64,000 nt of DNA from contig JACRLQ010000054.1 of assembly GCA_016215155.1 (NCBI GenBank), positions 2,641-66,640 of the forward strand, given 5' to 3'. Of this stretch, positions 18,050 through 47,752 are shown one piece after another. Made by a program: the position numbers and the translations under genes. Positions within the stretch are counted from its first letter, which is position 1. Each line of letters begins with the position of its first letter. This DNA is from Nitrospirota bacterium. Lineage in GTDB: Bacteria > Nitrospirota > Thermodesulfovibrionia > Thermodesulfovibrionales > UBA6898. The notes below the pieces were generated by a model. It was not told where the DNA came from. It did not search any database and worked only from the letters and a program-made list of their open reading frames with translations.

Positions 18050-20104
18050 TCAGTTATTCACGCCCACGTTTGTGTATGTGAATGTTACTCCTTGATTGGT
18101 GTATTGCAAGTCAAGCCAAAAAGATGTGCCGTTGAACATTACGTCCGGGATGTGCAAGAGGAAAGAATCTGACAAGGTTGCCGGAGCACATCCGCTAAAG
18201 GGCGTCGTATCAGCGATAACTTCAGCGTAAGTCAAGTTAAAGTTCGTGGTGCCAGGCACATAGGAGAAGTCCGCCCAATAAGCACTTCCGGCATACATTA
18301 GGTAAGGGACATGGAGGGTAAAGCTAGAAGGAGGCCCCATCCACCCATTGTAGTCAGCAGTGAGCGTGGCGTCACAAAAGCTATCTGACTGAAGTATTGT
18401 GCCATCACTCCCAACGGTCACGAAAGTGTTGTTGCCATAAGTTACGTTTGTCAGGCCGTTGTTTGTCCCAGAAGATCTGTTAGTCCAGGTCACAACGTCG
18501 TGCGATGTTAGAATTGCGTTGTTGATATATCCAACAGCTACGAATGTGTTGTTGCCATAAGTTACGCCATTCAGCCATGGGGTTGTCCCAAAAGACACGC
18601 CGGTCCATGTCACACCATCGTGCGATTTCAGAATTCCACCTCCAGCAGGCACGAAGGTCAATGTTGGGAGTGGCGTTCCAACAGCCACGAAAGTGTTGTT
18701 ACCGTAAGTTACCCCCCTGAGCCCTTGGTTAACGCCAGAAGCCCTGGTGATCCATGCGACACCATCCTGTGATGTCAAAATTACAACTCCAACAGCTACG
18801 AACATATTGTTGCCGTAAGTTACACCATTTAGCCCTTGTGTCGTACCCGACGACCCGCTGGTCCATGTGACACCATCGGGTGAGGTCAGGATCGTCCCAG
18901 CATCTCCAACAGCTACGAACATATTGCTGCCATAAGTTACGCCATTCAGCCATTGTGTCGTACCCGACGACCCGCTGGTCCACGTGACACCCTCGGGTGA
19001 GGTCAGGATCGTCCCAGCATGTCCAACAGCTACAAACATATTGCCGCCATAAGTTACGCCATTCAGCCATTGTGTCGTACCCGAAGACCTGCTGGTCCAT
19101 GTAACACCATCGGGTGAGGTCAGGATCGTCCCAGCATCTCCAACCGTTACGAACACATTGTTGCCATAACTTACACCATTTAGCCTTTGGGTCGTACCCG
19201 AAGACCTGCTGGTCCATGTAACACCATCGGGTGAAGTCAGAATTTTATTTCCAACAGCTACAAACATATTGTTGCCATAACTTATACCATTTAGCCATTG
19301 TGTCGTACCCGAAGACCTGCTGGTCCATGAGTCACCATCGGGTGAAGTCAGAATTTCACCTCCAACAGCTACGAACATATTGTTGCCGTAAGTTACCCCC
19401 CTGAGCCCTTGGTCAACCCCCGAAGACCTGCTCGTCCATGAGACACCATCGGATGATGTCAGGACCGTCCCATCATCGCCAACAGCAATGAACACATTGT
19501 TGCTATAAGTTACCTCGCTAAGCATTTGGTTAACGCCTGAAGATTTGATGGTCCACTCACTTCCATCGGGTGATGTCAGGATCGTTCCAGCATTTCCAAC
19601 AGCTACAAACATACTGTTGCCATAAGTTACGCCCCAAAAAGCTTTGGTTGTCCCCGACGACCGTTTGGTCCAGACGCGTCCATCTGGCGATGTCATTATA
19701 GACCCTCCAACGGTCACGAAGCTGTTATTGCCGTAAGTTATGCCTTCGAACGAATAGTTATTGAAGAGCCGAGGGGTCCATTGGATTCCATCGGGTGATG
19801 TCAGGATCGTCTCATTGCCAACAGCTACGAACATATTGCTGCCATAAGTTACACCATTCAGCCTTTGGGTTGTCCCCGACGACCTGCTGGTCCATGTGAC
19901 ACCATCGTGTGATGTCAGGATCGTACCATTATGTCCAACAGCTACAAACACATTATTGCCGTATGCGACTCCGCTGAGGAAGTTTCCCTGTGGAAGAGGG
20001 TTTCTCCAGTGCCAATTGTCTAACGGATCGGCATTTGAAGATGGCGGATACAGTGAAACAGAGATCAGTAAAAAAAGAAAAACCAGAAATCCCCTATAGC
20101 TCAT
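18050..20104 (-). CDS. Secreted protein with 14 tandem beta-propeller-like repeats
   Basis: A 684-residue protein. The signal peptide ends at about 25 (YPPSSNA). Then come 14 tandem units of about 37-39 residues with consensus LNGVTYGNNMFVAVG, a short loop, ILTSPDGVTWTSRSSGT. Units resemble the BNR/Ycf48-like sialidase repeat (SxDGxxW), which builds beta-propellers; 14 units would make two seven-bladed propellers. A C-terminal domain of about 110 residues has two related halves containing LHVPYLMYAGSAYWADF and LHIPDVMFNGTSFWLDL. Unit-to-unit DNA similarity is high, so copy number may vary. Probably an extracellular or surface protein; ligand unknown. Confidence 0.8.
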   Translation of the reverse strand: MSYRGFLVFLFLLISVSLYPPSSNADPLDNWHWRNPLPQGNFLSGVAYGNNVFVAVGHNGTILTSHDGVTWTSRSSGTTQRLNGVTYGSNMFVAVGNETILTSPDGIQWTPRLFNNYSFEGITYGNNSFVTVGGSIMTSPDGRVWTKRSSGTTKAFWGVTYGNSMFVAVGNAGTILTSPDGSEWTIKSSGVNQMLSEVTYSNNVFIAVGDDGTVLTSSDGVSWTSRSSGVDQGLRGVTYGNNMFVAVGGEILTSPDGDSWTSRSSGTTQWLNGISYGNNMFVAVGNKILTSPDGVTWTSRSSGTTQRLNGVSYGNNVFVTVGDAGTILTSPDGVTWTSRSSGTTQWLNGVTYGGNMFVAVGHAGTILTSPEGVTWTSGSSGTTQWLNGVTYGSNMFVAVGDAGTILTSPDGVTWTSGSSGTTQGLNGVTYGNNMFVAVGVVILTSQDGVAWITRASGVNQGLRGVTYGNNTFVAVGTPLPTLTFVPAGGGILKSHDGVTWTGVSFGTTPWLNGVTYGNNTFVAVGYINNAILTSHDVVTWTNRSSGTNNGLTNVTYGNNTFVTVGSDGTILQSDSFCDATLTADYNGWMGPPSSFTLHVPYLMYAGSAYWADFSYVPGTTNFNLTYAEVIADTTPFSGCAPATLSDSFLLHIPDVMFNGTSFWLDLQYTNQGVTFTYTNVGVNN

Positions 20105-42488: not shown

Positions 42489-42872
42489 TCACCGTTTTTG
42501 GTCAATATATTGCTTCGTCGGGTCAACGGCGATAAATGTCCCGCTCACTTTTCCTTCAGATGAAACAATATTTGCTTTGAATCTTCCGATATCCCTGGTC
42601 CCGAAGGCGAACTCGACCTTGTTATTTTTTTCGAACTCGGCCTTATTCTTGTCAGTAAAAATTATATGGCACATATTTTTACAGGCCTCGGCTTCCAAAG
42701 GCATATCCGTCAAAGGGACAAGCCTGCCTTTTACCATTGCCTGCGCCACAACTCCCGGTGTTATCCTGAGTTCGGCGCCATTGAGCTTTTTTGTCTGCTT
42801 GAGCAGATCAATTAAATCTCCGCCGGGCTTTACAGCGGATGAAAAACTGTTGAGCCAATCAAGAAATCCCAT
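42489..42872 (-). CDS. Stand-alone PilT N-terminal-like (PAS-like) domain protein
   Basis: A 127-residue soluble protein whose residues 25-115 follow the N-terminal domain of PilT-type ATPases: GAELRITPGVVAQAMVKGRL (compare PilT GASDLHL...G), then IIFTDKNKAEFEKNNKVEFA and GRFKANIVSSEGKVSGTF (compare the DFSF...ARFRVN...VFR pattern). The P-loop ATPase domain of PilT is absent and the gene ends with a stop, so this is not a frameshifted pilT. GGAGGT precedes the ATG. It follows lemA by 73 bases on the same strand and may be the last gene of the LemA operon. Confidence 0.6.
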   Translation of the reverse strand: MGFLDWLNSFSSAVKPGGDLIDLLKQTKKLNGAELRITPGVVAQAMVKGRLVPLTDMPLEAEACKNMCHIIFTDKNKAEFEKNNKVEFAFGTRDIGRFKANIVSSEGKVSGTFIAVDPTKQYIDQKR

Positions 42873-42945
42873 TCCGCACCTCCAAAATGTCCTGTTGGTC
42901 GGTTAAGTAAAATCAGGCAAATCACTGATCTCCCGCCTGACCACG

Positions 42946-43515
42946 TTACGTTTTTGAAAAGACGGCCTTAACGGGTTTCCGTTCCACCGCCGCGTCCTCA
43001 AGATGGAAAAAAACCTCAGGCTGGAAGGAAAAGGCCGAGGCCACTACATTCGTAGGGAAGACATCGGTTGCGACATTGTAATCCCGCACTGTAGCATTAT
43101 AGAACCTGCGAGCATGCTCGATGTTGTCGTCGATCTCTTTCATGTTGGCCATGATCTCCTTGTACTGCGCGTCTGCCTTAAGCGCCGGATATGCCTCGGC
43201 GACCGCAAAAAGACTTTTGAGTGTCTCGGTCAGCATATTGTCCGCCCTGGCCTTTTCGCCCGGATTCTGCGCCCTCATGGCTGCCGATCTCTGTTGCGTC
43301 ACCTTTAAAAAGGTATCGCTTTCGTGCGCCGCGTATCCCTTGACCGCCTCAATAAGGTTCGGCAGCAGTTCGTACCTTTTCTTCAGATGTACATCGATGT
43401 CGGACCACGAATTCCGGACCGCGTATCTCAGACGCACGAGTCTGTTGTAAATATAAATGAGAACTATCAGAAACAGCGCACTCCCGGCAATTCCTGCAAT
43501 CATACTGATACTCAT
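42946..43515 (-). CDS. lemA: LemA family membrane protein
   Basis: A 189-residue protein with an extracytoplasmic N-terminus, one membrane segment (about 4-24, SMIAGIAGSALFLIVLIYIYN) and a helical-bundle domain with the family motifs WSDIDVHLKKRYELLPNLIE and RRFYNATVRDYNV...FPTNVVA. LemA proteins have no settled function and often neighbour DUF2207 or TPM membrane genes. GGAGG precedes the ATG. It lies 28 bases behind the Trp-repeat genes. Confidence 0.95.
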   Translation of the reverse strand: MSISMIAGIAGSALFLIVLIYIYNRLVRLRYAVRNSWSDIDVHLKKRYELLPNLIEAVKGYAAHESDTFLKVTQQRSAAMRAQNPGEKARADNMLTETLKSLFAVAEAYPALKADAQYKEIMANMKEIDDNIEHARRFYNATVRDYNVATDVFPTNVVASAFSFQPEVFFHLEDAAVERKPVKAVFSKT

Positions 43516-43543
43516 AAAATACCTCCCTTATATGCTGATAGTT

Positions 43544-44122
43544 TCAAGGCTGTTTGCTTTTTTTCATTTTTGCTGCTGCATCAGCCGGCTCAATGCCCTT
43601 CATTTTCCACTCCTTTGCCAGGCTGGGGAACAAGCCCGCTTCTTTCCATTTCTTTGCCTCCTGCAGCCCGAACCCCGCTTCTTTCCATTCATTTGCCATG
43701 GTATGATGAAACCTCTCTTTGTTCCAGGCCGTTGCCGCTTCCGGTCCGAATCCCGCTTTTTCCCAGTATTTTACATCGTAGAAATCAATACCTCCGCTGT
43801 TCCACTTCCCTGCGTCCTCCGGCTCGATGCCCTCCTTTATCCACAGCGATGCGTGAGGCGGTTTAAATCCGGCATTACGCCAGCTCACAGCCATGCGCCT
43901 GCTGATCTTTTCGCGCTTCCACTCATCTATTTCCGCCCCGCTTAATCCGGTCTTTATCCACTGTCTGTTCTCATAGGCTTCCCTGAGTGCAACAGCATAA
44001 TACGGAACTGCATACGAGGCTGCGAGGCACAAAATAATGAGAAAACCTGCCAGACCCGCGGACAATCTCCCTGAGGAAGAGGCCGGCGAACTATGTTGTG
44101 CTTCCGTTGTCAGCCGGTTCAT
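43544..44122 (-). CDS. Membrane-anchored 13-residue Trp-repeat protein (10 units)
   Basis: A 192-residue protein: a short N-terminus, a membrane segment (LAGFLIILCLAASYAVPYYA, about 25-45), then ten contiguous 13-residue units each starting with Trp. Examples are WRNAGFKPPHASL, WIKEGIEPEDAGK, WEKAGFGPEAATA and WKEAGFGLQEAKK. The consensus is W-x-x-x-G-[FIL]-x-x-x-x-A-x-x. The C-terminus is lysine-rich. ATG 44122 is preferred: GAGG lies upstream and it forms an ATGA overlap with the preceding gene. No named family recognised; the repeat is probably helical and exported. Confidence 0.8.
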   Translation of the reverse strand: MNRLTTEAQHSSPASSSGRLSAGLAGFLIILCLAASYAVPYYAVALREAYENRQWIKTGLSGAEIDEWKREKISRRMAVSWRNAGFKPPHASLWIKEGIEPEDAGKWNSGGIDFYDVKYWEKAGFGPEAATAWNKERFHHTMANEWKEAGFGLQEAKKWKEAGLFPSLAKEWKMKGIEPADAAAKMKKSKQP

Positions 44123-44619
44123 GGCACATTCCTCTGCTTTGCATTGACAGCGCCGGTCGGGCTTATGCCTTTGTCTCTCCATTGGGCAGCCTCTTGAGCT
44201 TCAAAGCCGTGCTTCCTCCATGCGATCGCATCGCCGATTGTGAACTGAAGGCGCAACCAGCCCGCCGCTTTCTCAGGGGTAAAGGCATACCTTCTCCACT
44301 GAGCAGCCGTGGACAGATCGGCCCGGGCATCCCTCCACTCACTCGCTTCTCCCGGGGGAATGTCCATCGCCCTCCACTGAGTCATATCCGAAGCCGTAAA
44401 TCCTTTGGCGCGCCACCGGCTTGCTGTTTCCCTGAAAAATACACCATTGTCCCACCACGAAATGGTCTCTTCCGGAGTGAACCCGTGTCTCTCCCAACTG
44501 GCGATAAGGGCTTTCTTTGCAAGCACGACGCCGGAGTGGGGGACCAGAAATGAGAGCGTCAGGCAAAGGACGATCAGGAGTCTTGATGACCACGGATTTA
44601 TTGAAGCTGCGATAGGCAT
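44119..44619 (-). CDS. Membrane-anchored 13-residue Trp-repeat protein (9 units)
   Basis: A 166-residue paralogue of the downstream gene: a membrane segment (about 11-32, LLIVLCLTLSFLVPHSGVVL) then nine units such as WERHGFTPEETIS, WRAKGFTASDMTQ, WRAMDIPPGEASE, WRRYAFTPEKAAG and WRKHGFEAQEAAQ. One unit is 14 residues, the rest 13. The ATG 44619 start keeps the signal-anchor near the N-terminus; an in-frame extension to 44703 overlaps the upstream gene. Tight spacing on both sides indicates one operon. Confidence 0.78.
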   Translation of the reverse strand: MPIAASINPWSSRLLIVLCLTLSFLVPHSGVVLAKKALIASWERHGFTPEETISWWDNGVFFRETASRWRAKGFTASDMTQWRAMDIPPGEASEWRDARADLSTAAQWRRYAFTPEKAAGWLRLQFTIGDAIAWRKHGFEAQEAAQWRDKGISPTGAVNAKQRNVP

Positions 44620-44633
44620 AGGCCCAATCTCCC

Positions 44634-47030
44634 TTATGATGACCTTTTCACCGTTCTTATGAAGTCCCCGCAACCGAAACCTCCTGATGTGCCCTTGTAC
44701 CATTTTGCCTCTCCGTTGCGTATAAGCAGATGGCTGACATCAACTCCCGCCGCAATCGCGTAAGGAAGGTGTTCCTGTAAGAAAGGCGGGATGTCGGCCT
44801 TTTGCGCGTTGAGGTTTGTGAAGTTGCGTTTCAGAAAACCGGCATATGAGTGGAGCTGTTCCAGCAGGTCCACATACCCCTTGGCGGGCCTGCGTAAAAG
44901 GCGGCTGAACAGCAGCGTGAGCAGGCCGAAGCCGGCACAGAGGATAGATGCGTACACGGCGAGGCCGGTGGTTGCGCGACTCCTGTCAACCAGCTCGCTT
45001 TTGTCGATAACTGCAAGGGACGCCAGGAGGAACAAAACAGAAATGACGATGCCCGGCCAAAGATACCGTATGTTCTGCTCAGTCTGCTTTCCGTACTCTT
45101 TTTTCAACAGGGTCTTCAGCGTCCGTCCCGCCCGTGAAAGCAGTTTTCTCTCAGAACTGCCTGTCAGGACCACCATATTGCGTTCTGAAAAGAGGGTAGA
45201 CAGGAGGGTTTTTTCCCTATCAGACACCTGAGAGTCAATCGCCTGCGTTCGCTGGATTTTATAGGCCCCTTCCCATTCGAAGATCCTGATGTAGCCTCGT
45301 TCGGCAAGAGAGAGAATTGCGGCTGTTGTGCTCAGATGATCTGCTTTCCCTTTTTTCAGGAGTGCTCTCATCCCAGCGGGGTCGATATCAGCCGGAGGCG
45401 AGAACTCTGTCAGCTCGACCCCTTGTCCCTTCGGGTCGCGCCCGACCTTTACCCAGGCAGTCCAGTAGTAGATAAAGGAAACAACCAGCCCCGAAAAAAA
45501 GATAAACAGGCTCGACAACAAGCGCCTTGTCTGCCGGTCAAGCAGAACGAGTCTTTGCAGCCAGGAGGCCCTGGCGTACCCTTTTACAAATCCTATATCG
45601 ACCGAAAAAATCATTCCCTCTCTTAGAGGTCGTTTCACAAAATACCGTACAATATCGCCCTGACCTGTTTCTTCGACCTCTGCGCCAACGTCCTTTCGGT
45701 CCCTCAAACCGGCATATCCGCCCGCAAAAATAACGTCGGCGCCTTTGGGAAGCCTGACTGTTGCCGTTGAGCCTCTTATGTGATTTGCCCTGCCGGCGCG
45801 CCCGGCGATTACGAAACATAATTCATCATGGCGCGGATTATTCATGATCATGACATCGGTATTATACTTTATTACTACCTTATGTTCGCCCTCCGGCAGC
45901 GGCGCATCTTTTATTTTGAAATGCAGCAACCCGGCCGAGATATAATGACTGCCCGGCTGTCCATCCACCTCGATTGATTTTACATGCATTCGCGGGCTTG
46001 GGAATATAGATTGGGAGTTGGAGGCCCTGCACTCCCACATTTGAAGGCTCTTGTGATACCCCTCTTTATATTCACCACCCGGTCTGTCGATTATAGTGGC
46101 TGTTTCAATAACCTCGAGAGTGCCGTCGTTCTTTACAGTAATGTCCGCATCCAGTCCGGTTATTTCGTCTCCCTTGTCAGAGGACTCATACCTCCGAAGT
46201 TCAGCGTCTGTTGGACTCAGCCCCGCCTCCCTGTTCTTCAATGCCTCTTCAAGGGTAAACCCCGAATCCTTCCAAAGAACGCTTTCGTTGAAAGAGAACC
46301 CTGCCTCTTTCCATCGCTTTGCTTCAGAAAGCTCAAAGCCATATGTGCCGGCCATATGCGCTTCCTCTGCAGTAAAGCCCGAGACCCTCCAGCTCCTGGC
46401 AAATTCGATATCATATACCGTTTGGGAATAACGGGTGTCTTTTGTAAAGTAAAATTCGCTCATCCTCGGTCCATAGTGCCACGCCAGCATTGCGTCGGCA
46501 TCAAACCCCGCATCCCTCCATTTTTTTGCTTCGTCAGGGAAAAGCCCTTTCTTCCAGAATGTGCCTGCTTCCCCGGCGTCGAGACCGGCGGACAGATATT
46601 CGCGCGCCCGTTGACCGGATTTAATGCCGTGGTCCATCCACTCTCTGGCTTCTTCAGGGCCAAAGCCGTTTTTTAAAAAATCCCCTGCGGTATACACATT
46701 AACTATCCTGTGCCATTTGCCCGCGGACCCGGCGCTGAACCCCTCGCCCTTCCACTGCGCCGCCCATCCGGCGAAGATGATACCTTCCTGTATCCATTGC
46801 TTCGATTCATCGGCGCTTATGCCATAGTACCGCCACTCCGATGGAGCCGACGGAGGCACCCCTTTAAGGTTATCGTCAAGGTCTGCTGCAGCGTCTGCCG
46901 GAAAATAAAGGATACCAAACAACAATGAAAACGCTATGAGCAAGAGCGTGACAAACGATACAAAAATCTCACGACATATCAGCTGGGGACACGCATATCT
47001 CATCCTGTCGTATTTTATCACATGTTGCAT
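44634..47030 (-). CDS. Trp-repeat / DUF2207 membrane protein
   Basis: A 798-residue protein. A signal or anchor segment (about 22-48) is followed by about 13-15 Trp-repeat units (about 60-285, e.g. WKGEGFSAGSAGK, WRDAGFDADAMLA, WKEAGFSFNESVL, WKDSGFTLEEALK), some with Phe, Tyr or Ala in place of Trp and one 30-residue insertion. A DUF2207 domain follows, ITVKNDGTLEVIETATI onward, with membrane segments LLSSLFIFFSGLVVSFIYYW and IVISVLFLLASLAVI plus LAVYASILCAGFGLLTLLF. The glycine-containing end GTSGGFGCGDF is reminiscent of DUF2207/TPM proteins. DUF2207 commonly pairs with LemA. Start at 47030 or 47003; neither has a clear ribosome binding site. Confidence 0.85.
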   Translation of the reverse strand: MQHVIKYDRMRYACPQLICREIFVSFVTLLLIAFSLLFGILYFPADAAADLDDNLKGVPPSAPSEWRYYGISADESKQWIQEGIIFAGWAAQWKGEGFSAGSAGKWHRIVNVYTAGDFLKNGFGPEEAREWMDHGIKSGQRAREYLSAGLDAGEAGTFWKKGLFPDEAKKWRDAGFDADAMLAWHYGPRMSEFYFTKDTRYSQTVYDIEFARSWRVSGFTAEEAHMAGTYGFELSEAKRWKEAGFSFNESVLWKDSGFTLEEALKNREAGLSPTDAELRRYESSDKGDEITGLDADITVKNDGTLEVIETATIIDRPGGEYKEGYHKSLQMWECRASNSQSIFPSPRMHVKSIEVDGQPGSHYISAGLLHFKIKDAPLPEGEHKVVIKYNTDVMIMNNPRHDELCFVIAGRAGRANHIRGSTATVRLPKGADVIFAGGYAGLRDRKDVGAEVEETGQGDIVRYFVKRPLREGMIFSVDIGFVKGYARASWLQRLVLLDRQTRRLLSSLFIFFSGLVVSFIYYWTAWVKVGRDPKGQGVELTEFSPPADIDPAGMRALLKKGKADHLSTTAAILSLAERGYIRIFEWEGAYKIQRTQAIDSQVSDREKTLLSTLFSERNMVVLTGSSERKLLSRAGRTLKTLLKKEYGKQTEQNIRYLWPGIVISVLFLLASLAVIDKSELVDRSRATTGLAVYASILCAGFGLLTLLFSRLLRRPAKGYVDLLEQLHSYAGFLKRNFTNLNAQKADIPPFLQEHLPYAIAAGVDVSHLLIRNGEAKWYKGTSGGFGCGDFIRTVKRSS

Positions 47031-47180: not shown

Positions 47181-47561
47181 CTAACGATAAATGCCGAGGG
47201 GCAGGAACTTCGACATTATAAAAAAATGTTTGTCATTTGACAATAATCGTAAGCCCCCTTGAATTGAGTTTTGAGCGATGATTAAGTCCGGAATGCCGAC
47301 CCCGTTAGTTCCTTTATTCAAGCACAATGACTGCATTTTAATGATATCATTCCAGTCAATATTCATAGGTTGCCGTTTGATCTCACGCAGGAGGGTGACG
47401 AGTTCCTTTAATTTTCGTATTTGAAGAGCTGGAATAAGCTCTGCCAAAATTAATTCGTTTGTGACTACAAGGTCTTCTTCGATAAGCATCTCTAAAACAT
47501 CTGATTGTTCCGCATTCCGAAAGTATTCTATCCAGACAGATGAGTCAACAAGAACACTCAC
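47181..47561 (-). CDS. vapC: VapC-type PIN-domain toxin
   Basis: A 126-residue PIN ribonuclease: VDSSVWIEYFRN (first Asp), NELILAELIPAL (Glu), and GIPDLIIAQNSI (Asp). The last acidic site is in LLSNDKHF. This matches the VapC group that acts on tRNA. GTG 47561 in a GTGA overlap with the antitoxin stop. Base composition is more AT-rich than neighbours, in keeping with transfer. Confidence 0.92.
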   Translation of the reverse strand: MSVLVDSSVWIEYFRNAEQSDVLEMLIEEDLVVTNELILAELIPALQIRKLKELVTLLREIKRQPMNIDWNDIIKMQSLCLNKGTNGVGIPDLIIAQNSIQGGLRLLSNDKHFFIMSKFLPLGIYR

Positions 47562-47752
47562 GAACGTTTCCGCAGTGTATCGAGATCAATATCCAAATCA
47601 ACCTGTCCTCTGAACTTCTTCAACCCCTGTATTCTGCTTTTCCTGACAAAATCCTCAAGGGCTGCCACAATCACCGCCGTTTTGGTTCTCTGGTGTGACA
47701 CTTTCATTGCTTCTTCGACAAGCTTTTGCGGTAAATCTATAGTCGTTCTCAC
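47558..47752 (-). CDS. vapB: VapB-type antitoxin
   Basis: A 64-residue protein with an RHH-type DNA-binding N-terminus, TTIDLPQKLVEEAMKVS, then KTAVIVAALEDFVRKSRIQGL, as in the VapB group with the later W/F-containing toxin-binding tail (KKFRGQVDLDIDLD). GTG 47752 behind GGAGG. Paired with the PIN toxin. Confidence 0.9.
   Translation of the reverse strand: MRTTIDLPQKLVEEAMKVSHQRTKTAVIVAALEDFVRKSRIQGLKKFRGQVDLDIDLDTLRKRS

Follow-up and report, generated by a model that had tools for sequence, protein, structure and literature searches.

Three adjacent minus-strand genes in a 64,000-nucleotide stretch of a Nitrospirota genome (the window) encode proteins that share a tryptophan-anchored tandem unit of 13 residues, W-x3-G-[FIL]-x4-A-x2. 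The repeat is a real, unnamed family outside every repeat family tested, and structural modelling confidently predicts an unusual short-helix fold for it. One of the three genes encodes a DUF2207 membrane protein and the other two encode small proteins, here called rep2 and rep3; beside them stands a gene of the LemA family (Table 1). The locus is best read as a LemA-DUF2207 module with 13-residue solenoids that has been patchily inherited. LemA and DUF2207 are widespread and almost unexplained, and an operon in which one exported interaction module is present three times offers a testable handle on their assembly partners. The very regular helix-turn unit of 13 residues is also relevant to protein design, as a compact natural scaffold built of repeats. 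The gene positions given in an earlier reading of the DNA, made from the letters alone (the sequence-only reading), were all confirmed.

Table 1. Features of the repeat locus and its flanking gene, in window positions.
Feature	Position	Strand	Evidence and remarks
DUF2207 membrane protein	44634..47030	-	Pfam DUF2207_C 3e-20, DUF2207_N 1.5e-6; AF2 model
DUF2207 protein layout, N- to C-terminus: 13-residue repeat region, beta-rich DUF2207_N domain, transmembrane helix, DUF2207_C			
DUF2207 repeat region, residues 63-283	46182..46844	-	16 predicted short helices; one insertion near 190-205
rep2, 166 aa, N-terminal hydrophobic helix and nine 13-residue units	44119..44619	-	orthologs in three genomes
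rep2 repeat array, residues 42-159	44143..44496	-	
rep3, 192 aa, N-terminal hydrophobic helix and ten 13-residue units	43544..44122	-	AF2
rep3 repeat array, residues 55-184	43571..43960	-	AF2 and lag-13 identity
39-base DNA tandem repeat within rep3	43604..43698	.	DNA repeat detection
LemA family membrane protein, last conserved operon gene	42946..43515	-	Pfam LemA 2.2e-49
Stand-alone PilT N-terminal-like domain, after LemA	42489..42872	-	TIGR01420 45.5 bits; PDB 6ojx 1.3e-14

The array of rep3 consists of ten consecutive exact units, with all tryptophans spaced by 13 residues (55, 68 ... 172). Nine units are found in rep2, with one additional residue after the first (WW), and the DUF2207 protein has a looser series in its N-terminal 280 residues, where the exact tryptophan spacing of 13 occurs only four times. 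Identical residue pairs at lag 13 number 33 in rep3, 30 in rep2 and 34 in the DUF2207 protein against shuffle means of 8.7, 7.7 and 13.8 (z of 8.8, 8.6 and 5.8), and the observed value was reached by 0 of 20,000 shuffles. Furthermore, a spaced DNA pattern of five tryptophan codons and five hydrophobic codons matched six times in the window with none expected. The sequence-only reading had proposed this tryptophan-anchored repeat in the three genes, and identities 6 to 9 standard deviations above shuffles bear it out. Its count of nine units in rep2 is the same as ours, and its 13-15 units for the DUF2207 protein are about right, as AlphaFold2 gives 16 short helices across residues 63-283. Its ten exact 13-mers do exist in rep3, but it had placed them in the smallest protein, which is rep2. 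Repetition at the DNA level is detectable only as one short 39-base stretch, in rep3, which argues that the arrays are mostly old. That stretch is probably a recent unit duplication, and rep3 has ten units in the window versus eight in each of three orthologs. A different repeat of about 40 residues (GVTYGNNMFVAVGxxGTILTSPDGVTWTSRSSGTTQ) occurs elsewhere in the window, in a 684-aa secreted protein (18050-20104, minus strand) that is possibly a beta-propeller-like array.

No above-cut-off match to the repeat was obtained in Pfam, NCBIfam, PHROGs or PDB sequences, in agreement with the earlier statement that no named family has this period and signature. Among the Pfam helical repeats, including TPR, rep3 matched no family and rep2 nothing above cut-off; relatives of the repeat proteins scored only 12-15 bits against TPR_9 (cut-off 35). 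Searches of PDB sequences with rep3, also as a 15-row profile, returned only chance-level matches. A further candidate, Pfam Decapeptide (PF25296), gave 16-41 bits, the best of them in a lipoprotein-like repeat protein (L252), and was rejected because these scores lie below the cut-off of 45 and the aligned spans appear to need an insertion in every unit; we regard the likeness as compositional. A literature search found no description of a 13-residue repeat of this kind. As such, the unit has neither a family model in the libraries searched nor a solved homolog. Another 13-residue tryptophan repeat (WSDLQVLSDAGIN) was seen in long proteins of Omnitrophota and of a Gastranaerophilales contig (L086 1-4018 and six further loci). 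It has a turn-like A-G-I/L motif immediately before the next tryptophan and is possibly an analogous short-helix repeat.

AlphaFold2, run on rep3 with 14 relatives, produced a model with a mean pLDDT of 93.5 in which a long N-terminal helix (residues 22-56) is followed by ten helices, mostly of nine residues and one per unit. Set against the repeat consensus, the helix corresponds to x-P-E-E-A-x-x-W-x (nine residues) and the turn to x-G-F-x. The model of the DUF2207 protein (mean pLDDT 72) shows 16 short helices, then a beta domain, a membrane helix and a C-terminal domain. The repeat is predicted to fold into a series of very short helices, one per 13 residues, lying outside the membrane, and we infer that they stack as an alpha-solenoid; the sequence-only reading had anticipated short helices or a solenoid. 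Foldseek found no solved structure at E<=0.001 for the rep3 model, and the nearest shapes were designed left-handed alpha/alpha toroids (5byo and 4yxz; E 0.016 and 0.048) and MTERF4 (0.064). The repeats of mTERF proteins, of about 30 residues, have a similar L-x3-G-[LVI] spacing, which together with the weak Foldseek matches to MTERF4 and MTERF3 (E 0.06-0.8) could point to nucleic-acid binding by short helices. This is very improbable, as the repeat proteins are either anchored in the membrane or lipoproteins, while rep2 carries almost no net charge and the repeats of DUF2207 are acidic; moreover, there is no Pfam mTERF match and the Foldseek E is 0.06 at best.

Successive gaps from DUF2207 through rep2, rep3 and LemA to the PilT-like gene are +14, -4, +28 and +73 bases. 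The DUF2207 protein, rep2, rep3 and LemA alike have hydrophobic N-terminal segments by hydropathy, as had been noted for the three repeat proteins, and these segments support the earlier view that the repeats are probably exported; they are probably extracytoplasmic and membrane-anchored. Hydropathy and AlphaFold2 agree on a predicted DUF2207 topology with an extracellular N-terminus, a membrane helix and a cytoplasmic C-domain. Both family names from the sequence-only reading stand above Pfam gathering scores: LemA at 167.6 bits against PF04011 (gathering score 26.2; E 2.2e-49), and the DUF2207 protein at 29 bits against 24.4 and 73.4 against 33 (PF09972 / PF20990), with the ortholog proteins matching too. 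The positive charges after the membrane helix of LemA suggest that its soluble domain faces the cytoplasm; an extracellular prediction for LemA is cited in PMC3905215. PADLOC anti-phage defence profiles matched LemA at no more than chance level (13 bits) and gave nothing for DUF2207, rep2 or rep3.

Three further complete operons emerged, among the matches listed, from profile searches and a scan with a DNA pattern, one of them in Deltaproteobacteria bacterium RA.bin48. In all three the order is DUF2207 with repeats, rep2, rep3 and LemA on a single strand, so that the co-occurrence across genomes raised in the earlier reading does exist. Most of the DNA pattern matches listed were unrelated 39-base repeats or frames with stops and were set aside. 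LemA is 66-77% identical across the four operons (69-77% between the window and the other three), compared with 48-53% for the housekeeping control LipA between the window genome and the same three genomes. The LemA proteins of three DUF2207-paired genes in the window's own family are 55-57% identical to that of the window and 78-86% to one another. The operon occurs in 1 of 27 genomes of the window's family and 2 of 14 of another family (f25), and the wider samples give 1 of 149 genomes for the order and, counting any repeat match, 7 of 396 for the phylum. Together, these identities and the patchy distribution suggest horizontal transfer or multiple loss, and the patchiness also implies that the four-gene operon is dispensable. 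LemA-DUF2207 gene pairs, the same two Pfam families side by side, also occur in the window's family and order, but the six loci examined there have no repeat array and no rep2 or rep3, unlike the window operon. The window DUF2207 protein (44634-47030) is without the Gly/Ser-rich C-terminal tail present in the consensus of its repeat-less relatives.

The sequence-only reading had counted five genes in one operon. The linkage of DUF2207, rep2, rep3 and LemA stands, but the PilT-like gene, 73 bases beyond LemA, has no conserved link to them, and on synteny that gene lies outside the conserved operon. Its PilT N-terminal-like domain is confirmed by NCBIfam (TIGR01420, 45.5 bits) and a PDB match; its proposed partnership with the other genes did not hold. 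Upstream of the operon (47181-47700, minus strand) lies a VapC-like PIN gene, with a VapB-like frame apparently before it. These two genes flank the operon in the window and could in principle tie it to twitching motility or a toxin-antitoxin module, a link we consider barely credible: their flanking gaps are 73 and 150 bases, and the regions fetched around the other three operons contained nothing matching the PilT-N, PIN or DLH genes. Their membership in the system is largely refuted by synteny.

Conservation is concentrated in the arrays. Between the four DUF2207 orthologs, mean identity is 62% in the repeat region, 47% in DUF2207_N and 46% in the C-terminal part. Orthologous units are identical at 62% (rep2) and 59% (rep3) of positions, versus 31% and 29% for units within one protein, and at non-consensus positions the values are 54% and 46% versus 19% and 12%. 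As orthologous units are about twice as alike as units of the same protein, each unit keeps its own surface, selected unit by unit; WRNAGFKPPHAS and WRKHGFEA are examples of conserved surface residues peculiar to one unit. The array is therefore an old, position-specific surface, as would be expected for a binding array and not for a drifting spacer. A passive structural spacer or surface coat, free to drift and linked to LemA by incidental hitch-hiking, would suit the solitary repeat proteins of Shewanella and other bacteria, the patchy distribution and the changed unit number of rep3. It is nevertheless rather improbable, given that no part of DUF2207 is better conserved than its repeat region, that repeat units are conserved individually and that the four-gene order is identical in four genomes.

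We tentatively favour, at somewhat short of an even chance, the reading that the four genes form one accessory membrane module, an envelope scaffold or adaptor of three extracytoplasmic solenoid proteins around DUF2207. DUF2207 would be the hub, with its repeat solenoid and a beta-sandwich outside, a helix in the membrane and a C-terminal domain in the cytoplasm; rep2 and rep3 would be small proteins anchored in the membrane, with nothing but a solenoid like that of DUF2207 in their exported part. In each unit W, F and A would form the core and the remaining positions the surface, through which, outside the membrane, the three solenoids may pack alongside one another or bind a partner in common. 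At the membrane itself, the complex would be organised by LemA together with the C-terminal domain of DUF2207. Both the scaffold role and the solenoid-solenoid contacts are what we infer from the operon order and tight spacing kept in four genomes, the one helix per unit in rep3 and the same helices in the DUF2207 model, and the unit-by-unit conservation. By net charge, the repeats of DUF2207 are acidic (-6 to -13) in all four genomes and rep3 is basic (+1 to +5); this modest complementarity would fit contact without proving it. The scaffold reading is also favoured by MamQ, a magnetosome protein described in PMC4902198 as the sole member of the LemA family with a tie to a known process, and proposed to be a hub that organises membrane proteins. 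Against a scaffold, the operon is patchy and dispensable, a cytoplasmic LemA domain would be unable to touch the solenoids, and repeat proteins elsewhere function without LemA or DUF2207. The solenoids could instead act as receptors in an envelope sensor or transporter, with a peptide, glycan or lipid as ligand; DUF2207 would read the bound ligand and use its membrane part to signal or transport, and rep2 and rep3 would be co-receptors and not scaffold. The unit-specific surface residues would suit such a role, as would the stress sensitivity of a DUF2207 mutant (PMC10457818) and the Foldseek matches of the DUF2207 model to M1 aminopeptidases and Ost1/ribophorin subunits (E about 1e-5 to 1e-4). 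These matches have query-normalised TM-scores of only about 0.17 and most likely arise through the beta domain, and no sensor kinase or transporter gene was seen linked to all four operons; we regard a receptor as unlikely, though worth keeping in view.

The earlier tie between the repeat and LemA/DUF2207 holds in the four operons but is not a general one, as the repeat-less pairs of the window's family and order indicate and as most other repeat proteins stand alone. Seven Shewanella lipoproteins of about 110 aa carry the unit W-x3-G-F-x4-A and have an apparent lipobox, which points to export. They share the unit consensus with the window repeat but are lipid-anchored, have shorter arrays and lack a conserved neighbour, with no LemA or DUF2207 seen beside them. 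Relatives occur in Pseudomonadales and Spongiibacteraceae, where neighbours are not shared, and the repeat is also present in an Acidimicrobiaceae contig, Crocosphaera and a Euzebya plasmid. Among lipoprotein-like repeat proteins with an additional C-terminal part, L252, L253 and L254 share this extension (CPKG...L.GNP..L.GYC in L252 and L254), which has no Pfam match above cut-off. The L253 gene (6520-7530) lies a few kilobases from open reading frames resembling genes for a coupling protein and a relaxase, so conjugative elements may carry the repeat. Searching plasmids by tblastn gave no match with rep3 and a real-looking Euzebya protein with L252; Salmonella and Enterococcus simple repeats, also matched by L252, were rejected on inspection as unrelated. 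Viral contigs carry repeat genes as well (L151 8923-9363, L181 106-696 and L193 5763-6965, contig IMGVR_UViG_3300042965_000182; L199 7943-8491). One viral contig has at least three repeat paralogs with a common K/E-rich N-terminal helix, and the same helix starts a repeat-less neighbour (L193 7368-7955). An evident signal is missing from the viral and some of the other repeat proteins, so export is not a property of the repeat itself. Whether it is an unrecognised natural alpha-solenoid class, a portable interaction module of bacteria and viral contigs built three times into the LemA-DUF2207 complex of one lineage, is in our judgement evenly balanced.

Compared with known systems, the window LemA resembles MamQ as a homolog but falls below its NCBIfam equivalog cut-off (83.7 bits against 250). 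The designed toroids and MTERF are the nearest solved shapes to rep3, yet with E 0.016 at best and rmsd of 9-12 Å; the former are artificial and the latter unrelated proteins. To our knowledge, no natural alpha-solenoid has a shorter one-helix unit. The alpha-solenoids TPR, PPR, Sel1, ankyrin, HEAT and ARM share with the window repeat tandem helices predicted to stack, but their units are given in a review as having about 30-44 residues and two or three helices (PMC11514114), whereas the window unit has no above-cut-off sequence match to them and comprises 13 residues and a single helix.
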